From: Wenjunlia vitaminophila DSM 41686
GTDB lineage: Bacteria > Actinomycetota > Actinomycetes > Streptomycetales > Streptomycetaceae
Reading direction: 5' to 3'
NCBI RefSeq assembly: GCF_000380165.1
Contig: NZ_KB904634.1
Span: 63,131 to 127,130 of the forward strand
Length of the DNA stretch: 64,000 nucleotides
Position 1 is the first letter of the stretch; the number at the start of each line of letters is the position of its first letter. Shown here piece by piece: positions 31,578 through 33,242 of this stretch. The notes below the pieces were generated by a model. That model was not told the origin of the DNA. It did not search any database and saw only the letters and a list, made by a program, of their open reading frames with translations. Made by a program: the position numbers and the translations under genes.

Positions 31578-33242
31578 ATGCAGAAGACGTCCTCCCGCCT
31601 GCTCGCGCTGCTCTCGCTCCTTCAGACGCGCCGTGACTGGTCCGGCGACGACCTCGCCGAGCGCCTCGGCGTCACCTCGCGCACCGTGCGCCGTGACATC
31701 GACCGCCTGCGCGAACTCGGCTACCCGATCAGAACCGTCAAAGGACCGGCCGGCGGCTACCGGCTGGAGGCGGGCACCCACCTGCCTCCCTTGCTGTTCG
31801 ACGACGACCAGGCCGTAGCCCTGGCCGTCGCGCTACAGACCGCGGCACCCGGCACCCCCCTCGCCGAAGACGCCACCCGCGCCCTGGCCACCCTCCGCCA
31901 GGTCATGCCACCCCGCCTACGCCACCGCATCGACCTGCTGCGCGTCACCGCCGTCCAACCGCCCGCGGCCGGCGGCACCCCCCAGGTCGACGCTCAGGTC
32001 GTGACGGCCCTGAGCCACGTCATCGACGCCCGCGAGGAACTGCGCCTCGACTACGCGCCGGGCTCGAGCGCCCCGGCCGACAACCCCCGCCGCGTGCAAC
32101 CCCACCACCTGGTCACCTGGCGTCACCGCTGGTACCTCGTGGCCTGGGACCTCGACCGCGAGGACTGGCGCACCTTCCGCGTCGACCGCGTCCACCCCCG
32201 CACCCCCACCGGCCCCCGTTTCACCCCTCGCCAACTCCCCGGCGGCGACGTCTCCACCTTCATCACCAGCCGGTTCCGCGGCAACGACGGCACCACCACC
32301 GAATGGCCCTGCCTGGGCGACGTCGTCCTCCACCTCCCGGCCGCCGACGTCGCACCCTTCGTCCAGGACGGGATCGTCGAGGCACTCGGCCCTCACCGCT
32401 GCCGACTCACCCTCGGCGCCTGGTCGTGGACCGGACTCGCCGCGGCCATCGGCCGCTTCGACACCGATGTCGAGGTCATCGGCCCACCCCAACTGGCCAC
32501 CGCGTTCGCGGACCTCGCCGCCCGCTACGCCCGCGCCGCTCGACCCCTTCGAACGTCGGGCACAGGCCCAGCGCTCATCCACACCACTCGCCGAGCACGC
32601 CAAGCTCGAGGCACACCCCGGCCCGAAGGCCGGGGTATCCACGAAGGAGACCCGATGAACGCACCGCCCACGCTGTCCGCCATGGAGATCACCACGGATC
32701 GACTCAGGCTGCGGAAGGCGCACAACACCGACATCGACGGCCTCATCGAACTCCAGACCGATCCGCGGGTCCGGGCCCACCTCGGCGGCCCGCGGCCCCG
32801 TGACGTCGTCGAGCAGTACTTCGACGCCAACGGCGTCAGCGCCGTCGCCAGCAGGCCCGGCACCTACGTCATCGCCGACAGGGAAACCAACCGGTTCCTC
32901 GGGACGCTGGTGCTCGACCGCCGTTCCGCCGACCTTCCCGGGCACGTCACCGAGGAGGGCGCGGAGCTGGAGCTGACCTACCTGCTCCGGCGCGGCAGTT
33001 GGGGTGCGGGGCTGGCGTTCGAGGCCGCCACGGCTGTGTTGCGCGCCGCCGCCGACGAGCTGCCCGACCAGCCGGTCCTGGTGGTGACCCAGACCGCCAA
33101 CGCGCGTTCACTCAGGCTCGCCACCCGCCTCGGTTTCCGGCGCGTCGGCACCTTCGACGCGCACGGCGCGGAACAAACCCTCGCCGTAGCCGACCTGCAC
33201 TCGTTCACGGCTGATGGCGGAGGGACCGGCAACCTCGCGTGA
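31578..33242 (+). CDS. WYL-domain transcriptional regulator with no stop before the following GNAT gene
   Basis: From ATG 31578 an HTH-11/DeoR-type winged helix (LLALLSLLQTRRDW, DLAERLGVTSRTVRRDIDRL) is followed by a WYL ligand-sensing region (REELRLDYAPGSS, HHLVTWRHRWYLVAWDLDRE, DWRTFRVDRV). The regulator's usual end comes near residue 330 (AFADLAARYARAA). No stop codon follows: the frame continues through about 30 low-complexity residues, across a perfect hairpin, and into a GNAT acetyltransferase in the same frame, ending at 33242 (554 codons). Either this is a true fusion or the regulator lost its stop. GNAT has its own good ribosome site and ATG. The divergent VOC gene is a likely target. 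Confidence 0.75.
   Translation: MQKTSSRLLALLSLLQTRRDWSGDDLAERLGVTSRTVRRDIDRLRELGYPIRTVKGPAGGYRLEAGTHLPPLLFDDDQAVALAVALQTAAPGTPLAEDATRALATLRQVMPPRLRHRIDLLRVTAVQPPAAGGTPQVDAQVVTALSHVIDAREELRLDYAPGSSAPADNPRRVQPHHLVTWRHRWYLVAWDLDREDWRTFRVDRVHPRTPTGPRFTPRQLPGGDVSTFITSRFRGNDGTTTEWPCLGDVVLHLPAADVAPFVQDGIVEALGPHRCRLTLGAWSWTGLAAAIGRFDTDVEVIGPPQLATAFADLAARYARAARPLRTSGTGPALIHTTRRARQARGTPRPEGRGIHEGDPMNAPPTLSAMEITTDRLRLRKAHNTDIDGLIELQTDPRVRAHLGGPRPRDVVEQYFDANGVSAVASRPGTYVIADRETNRFLGTLVLDRRSADLPGHVTEEGAELELTYLLRRGSWGAGLAFEAATAVLRAAADELPDQPVLVVTQTANARSLRLATRLGFRRVGTFDAHGAEQTLAVADLHSFTADGGGTGNLA
32615..32636. repeat. Perfect hairpin inside the WYL-GNAT open frame
   Basis: A 9-bp stem (A-CCCCGGCC at 32615-32623 with GGCCGGGG-T at 32628-32636) closes a CGAA tetraloop. 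It lies just before the GNAT ribosome site. It looks like an intergenic element that is now translated. Its form also recalls hairpin ends of IS200/IS605-type elements; no transposase is present. Confidence 0.6.
32655..33242 (+). CDS. GNAT-family N-acetyltransferase
   Basis: A 195-residue RimJ/RimL-like acetyltransferase: start TTDRLRLRKAHNTDIDGLI, beta-bulge and acetyl-CoA loop region ELTYLLRRGSWGAGLAFEAA, and the C-terminal NARSLRLATRLGFRRVGTFD. It transfers acetyl from acetyl-CoA to an amine or a protein N-terminus; the substrate is unknown. AAGGAG five bases before ATG 32655 supports an independent start, although the upstream WYL frame reads into it without a stop. Confidence 0.88.
   Translation: MNAPPTLSAMEITTDRLRLRKAHNTDIDGLIELQTDPRVRAHLGGPRPRDVVEQYFDANGVSAVASRPGTYVIADRETNRFLGTLVLDRRSADLPGHVTEEGAELELTYLLRRGSWGAGLAFEAATAVLRAAADELPDQPVLVVTQTANARSLRLATRLGFRRVGTFDAHGAEQTLAVADLHSFTADGGGTGNLA

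Follow-up and report, generated by a model that had tools for sequence, protein, structure and literature searches.

Between a WYL-domain regulator gene and a GNAT acetyltransferase gene of Wenjunlia vitaminophila DSM 41686 lies a junction that is very probably the product of two separate events: the left end (LE) of an IS200/IS605-family transposon gave the GNAT gene its ribosome-binding site (RBS), and a 58-bp deletion removed the stop codon of the WYL gene. The 64,000 nucleotides analysed here (contig NZ_KB904634.1, positions 63,131 to 127,130, forward strand) are referred to as the window, and coordinates are counted from its first base. The features of the junction and its flanking genes are:

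31578-32539 (+), WYL-domain regulator (HTH_11 + WYL + WCX, from Pfam and homologues), homologous core residues 1 to ~320, own stop missing
32532-32539 (+), CGCGCCGC, surviving copy of a short repeat at the site of a ~58-bp deletion (C-terminal tail, TGA and start of the 3' flank lost relative to relatives)
32540-32605 (+), sequence that once flanked the WYL gene on its 3' side, at present in frame, not coding-like
32615-32636 (+), 9-bp GC hairpin with CGAA loop, the terminal palindrome of the LE
32615-32654 (-), solo LE remnant of an IS200/IS605-family tnpB transposon, on the would-be tnpB strand; tnpB and right end (RE) lost
32644-32649 (+), AAGGAG, Shine-Dalgarno (SD) sequence borne by the transposon end
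32655-32658 (+), ATGA, the GNAT start codon, which on the other strand is the transposon target site TCAT
32655-33242 (+), GNAT acetyltransferase gene (Acetyltransf_3), 195 aa, a separate gene elsewhere in Streptomycetaceae

The open frame and the missing WYL stop codon

The preliminary description had reported a frame open for 554 codons (31578-33242) that runs without interruption through the hairpin, the AAGGAG and the GNAT ATG, and all of these are confirmed here. It also called the junction intergenic in appearance, and the composition is not coding-like: GC3 is 0.90 in the WYL part and 0.89 in GNAT but only 0.56 between them, so the junction cannot have served as coding sequence for long. 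The open frame says little by itself, since the 38 codons of the junction have zero stops in any of the three frames, and the given frame is open in 85% of dinucleotide shuffles. Pfam places HTH_11, WYL and WCX, all above cut-offs, within residues 7-318 of the translation, and Acetyltransf_3 within residues 375-521.

All 98 WYL homologues that could be read (45-86% identical, drawn from related genomes and genome contigs) have their own stop, and most are 315-346 aa long. Together with the alignments below, this supports one of the two explanations in the preliminary description, that the stop codon was lost recently; it had suggested checking close relatives for a stop after residue ~340. Close homologues end in ...ARYARAA, followed by 5-20 residues and the stop; the window tracks them up to ...RYARAA and then diverges. 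Its next 65 bases match the relatives' post-stop DNA and not their coding tail (for example CCGCTCAAGCCCTCCGAACCTCCGGGGCCGACCCAACGCTCA in locus L033 vs CCGCTCGACCCCTTCGAACGTCGGGCACAGGCCCAGCGCTCA in the window). In seven relatives the score of this post-stop alignment is reached by at most 8 of 1000 shuffles (that is, it beats at least 992), while the pre-stop alignment is unremarkable relative to shuffles; one relative, L050, shows the opposite, aligning better with its pre-stop part. Where a second CGCCGC-like copy is present, in eight relatives, the stretch missing between the two comes to the same 58 bp, and for L045 to 50 bp. On these alignments, the simplest account is a deletion between short CGCCGC repeats, taking the WYL tail and its TGA. 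A placement of the junction in the coding tail, forced by the MAFFT multiple alignment, was overturned by the pairwise pre- and post-stop tests. One WYL homologue (L002, 378 aa) has a long low-complexity C-terminal extension, so displacement of the stop among WYL homologues is not unique to the window.

An assembly or sequencing error at the junction, masking a real WYL stop such as the TGA inside ATGA and hence an ordinary coupled gene pair, is unlikely. The assembly is a draft of 111 contigs, a one-base error would shift the frame, and in one alternative junction frame the WYL ORF would indeed stop at the TGA of ATGA. However, the missing 58 bp are consistent across relatives and flanked by repeats, and the transposon end is intact up to the ATGA boundary.

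The GNAT gene and its native 5' region

Of 394 other genomes sampled in Streptomycetaceae, 12 have an orthologue of the GNAT gene (69-83% identical), and all 12 belong to one genus. In those orthologues whose start can be read, the DNA resembles the window from ATGAAC onward, and the hairpin is absent; in L113, for example, the start is preceded by GGGACAATGGATCTC-ATGAACGCA, with neither hairpin nor SD sequence. Five orthologues (L113, L114, L115, L116 and L122) share a conserved ACAAT 7-10 nt before the ATG and have no SD, and for these reasons the native GNAT gene may be leaderless.

A bifunctional WYL-GNAT regulator maintained by selection, with free GNAT as a second product, is quite unlikely. 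The frame is unbroken and both domains look intact, but none of the 98 WYL homologues has a GNAT relative beside or fused to it in the DNA compared, and none of the 12 GNAT orthologues is linked or fused to a WYL gene, so that no conserved fusion family emerges from either set; moreover, the linker consists of former 3' flank and insertion sequence end, with a non-coding composition.

The hairpin as a transposon left end

The arms of the hairpin are perfect (ACCCCGGCC-CGAA-GGCCGGGGT) and its folding z-score is -2.1. It is not a chance structure, since the same 43-48 bp recur at ~83-96% identity ahead of unrelated genes in many genomes. Searches with the junction DNA recovered the hairpin plus TATCCACGAAGGAG alone many times in other genomes, and window positions 32616-32666 match the LE of an intact element at E=8e-16, the window copy stopping at the same ATGA. 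Judged from these matches, the hairpin together with TATCCACGAAGGAGACCCG is a solo LE remnant of an IS200/IS605 (tnpB) transposon, with its subterminal palindrome and a linker that abuts the fixed target. The remnant may extend slightly upstream, to ~32593. Neither a tnpB or TnpB match nor an RE remnant occurs within the window, which makes this copy a solo LE rather than an intact member, so we infer a full element at the GNAT site. In the window no Rfam family reached its gathering score, and the element loci gave weak sub-threshold matches only.

The preliminary description had offered tuning of read-through by the hairpin as a second explanation. That idea is not sustained: the structure is the terminal palindrome of an LE, found elsewhere beside a divergent tnpB, and WYL-GNAT linkage or fusion is not conserved; it is better described as part of an RBS-bearing transposon scar. 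More generally, it is very improbable that the hairpin belongs to the WYL or GNAT gene itself as a terminator, attenuator or regulator of read-through, for although a stable GC hairpin does lie immediately ahead of an RBS, it lacks a U-tract and an Rfam match at the gathering threshold, stands ahead of unrelated genes and at tnpB left ends, and is absent from WYL and GNAT orthologues.

Left ends and tnpB elements in other genomes

A scan with the core motif gave matches in 35 of 298 genomes, some by chance, and control scans with the reversed pattern gave zero. Leaving aside a few chance matches, all LE copies run up to an ATGA, which in most cases starts an unrelated gene; argC, murQ, an acyl-CoA dehydrogenase and an Lpd-like gene are among the apparent genes behind LE copies (names read from the sequences). 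Across the hairpin, 33 of the copies selected by pattern have a tnpB in divergent orientation whose start lies 89-157 bp from the core motif, and ATGA or GTGA directly follows the SD in 32 of them. Complete copies in Streptomycetaceae have tnpB pointing away and the LE sitting on an ATGA start, to which it supplies an SD sequence. The three TnpB proteins tested carry PF01385, PF07282 and PF12323, the OrfB_IS605, Cas12f1-like TNB and HTH_OrfB domains.

A second sample comprised loci chosen by TnpB alone (n=23). The terminal hairpin is kept in 16, and each of these 16 shows an SD-like stretch (duplex -6.5 kcal/mol or better), then ATGA or GTGA opening a coding-like ORF; the products include PurE twice, HisH, a Zwf-like protein, a CRP-like regulator and PadR. 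As controls, 200 ATGA sites of the window were scored: 27.5% stand before a coding-like ORF, and an SD duplex of such strength occurs at 37.5%, but the comparison with 16/16 is a guide and not a formal test, because the copies are related and the best start was picked within ~135 nt. The letters of the SD stretch vary (AAGGAG, GGAGGT, AAAGGA) and are always purine-rich; recognition by TnpA, rather than translation, may be what keeps the stretch SD-like.

Pattern-selected copies with tnpB stand before coding-like ORFs in 17 of 23 cases outside genome G253, vs 3 of 10 within it. Contig C1 of G253 has 11 exact-core copies (L200-L210) at 7.65-8.06 Mb, in the last 450 kb of its 8.09 Mb. Since the G253 copies are mostly not before genes, start codons are not obligatory landing sites, and retention there may reflect survivorship. 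The hairpin-SD-ATGA arrangement was not seen in distant TnpB clades (~43-56% identity: L234, L254, L255, L256). As family members, the complete elements would be expected to be mobilised by a Y1 TnpA supplied in trans, with their TnpB cutting at a TCAT TAM (the TnpB target motif); inspection by eye showed an ORF resembling tnpA next to one distant tnpB (L256).

The genome of the window itself has tnpB copies at the ends of contigs 37 and 39. Two more LEs, with no evident tnpB, lie on contigs 76 (L159) and 37 (L165), in front of murQ and an enoyl-CoA hydratase gene, and are possibly domesticated leaders. At the ends of contigs 17 and 80 (L155, L156) a small ribbon-helix-helix-like gene is followed by a similar hairpin unit (CCCCGGCC..GGCCGGGGCATCCTCG), a repeated element of another kind.

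Empty sites at purK/purE and hisH

Insertion boundaries can be read directly where relatives have kept the empty site. In genome G087, purK ends in ...ATCACCGA-TTGACC (RE) and purE is preceded by ...CACGCAAGGAGATCGGG-ATGAGC (LE), while in four relatives the empty site reads ...ATCACCGAATGAG, with the purK stop overlapping the purE start. The element lies between CACCGA and ATGAGC, and not one base has been duplicated or has gone missing; the RE contributes the TGA in the present purK ending, GAT-TGA, and the LE contributes a new SD to purE. Genome G080 (L228) has the same arrangement with one RE letter different. At hisH, the occupied site (...ATCTGGGA-TTGACC...AAGGAGGTTGGG-ATGAGC) likewise compares with an empty site in a relative (...ATCTGGGAATGAGT). 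Complete tnpB elements lie exactly in the ATGA stop/start overlap at L236, L225 and L228, with the TGA coming from the RE and the SD from the LE, inserted without target duplication at both the purK/purE and hisH loci, and one genome carries elements in this position before both purE and hisH.

Proposed history of the locus

The most probable course of events begins with a tnpB-only IS200/IS605-family transposon landing on the ATGA that starts GNAT, which reads TCAT on the tnpB strand. The LE hairpin, followed by an SD at the right distance from the ATG, would then have replaced the gene's own 5' region as a working RBS, and the tnpB body and RE would have been lost afterwards, the solo LE ending up behind the WYL gene. 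In what would be a separate event, the 58-bp deletion between CGCCGC repeats took the WYL tail and stop codon. Because every junction frame is open, the WYL frame would enter GNAT by chance about 1 time in 3. Most translation of GNAT probably starts from the RBS that the transposon brought, on mRNA reading through from the WYL gene. From the sequence, two products are possible, free GNAT and a 554-aa fusion protein, and the fusion, if formed, is probably accidental.

Comparison with known transposons and wider meaning

An RE ending in TCAA is typical of the IS200/IS605 family, and IStrons are tnpB elements with a group I intron. Like ISDra2 and IS608, the elements described here encode a TnpB that carries OrfB_IS605 and TNB domains, possess subterminal palindromes, insert 3' of a short fixed target without duplicating it, and have an RE that ends in TCAA. 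They differ in that their target, TCAT, is a start codon on the other strand, their LE linker bears an SD and their RE supplies a TGA; the window copy differs further in retaining the LE only. With IStrons they share the idea that a TnpB transposon can keep the harm done to its host gene small, but stop and RBS are restored here at the DNA ends, whereas IStrons rely on RNA splicing. Members of the IS200/IS605 family are known to insert 3' to a fixed short site that is not duplicated, and in ISDra2 the target motif (TAM) of TnpB equals the transposon target (PMC8612924). The literature searched, with incomplete coverage, holds no description of start-codon insertion or of a transposon-borne RBS or stop for this family, and the wider pattern appears to be undescribed.

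It is likely that a Streptomycetaceae TnpB clade is specialised for landing in start codons, among them those in the ATGA stop/start overlaps of operons, with the RE restoring the stop and the LE restoring the RBS, and that the LE can be left as a domesticated leader after tnpB is lost, as in the window. With a spare stop and RBS on its ends, such an insertion sequence could enter core-metabolism operons (purE, hisH) with little apparent harm, and the TAM of these RNA-guided nucleases would thereby be linked to start codons. Transposon left ends would then be ready-made portable RBS parts, and the pattern would explain why hairpin leaders recur, and why spurious gene fusions turn up, when actinomycete genomes are annotated.
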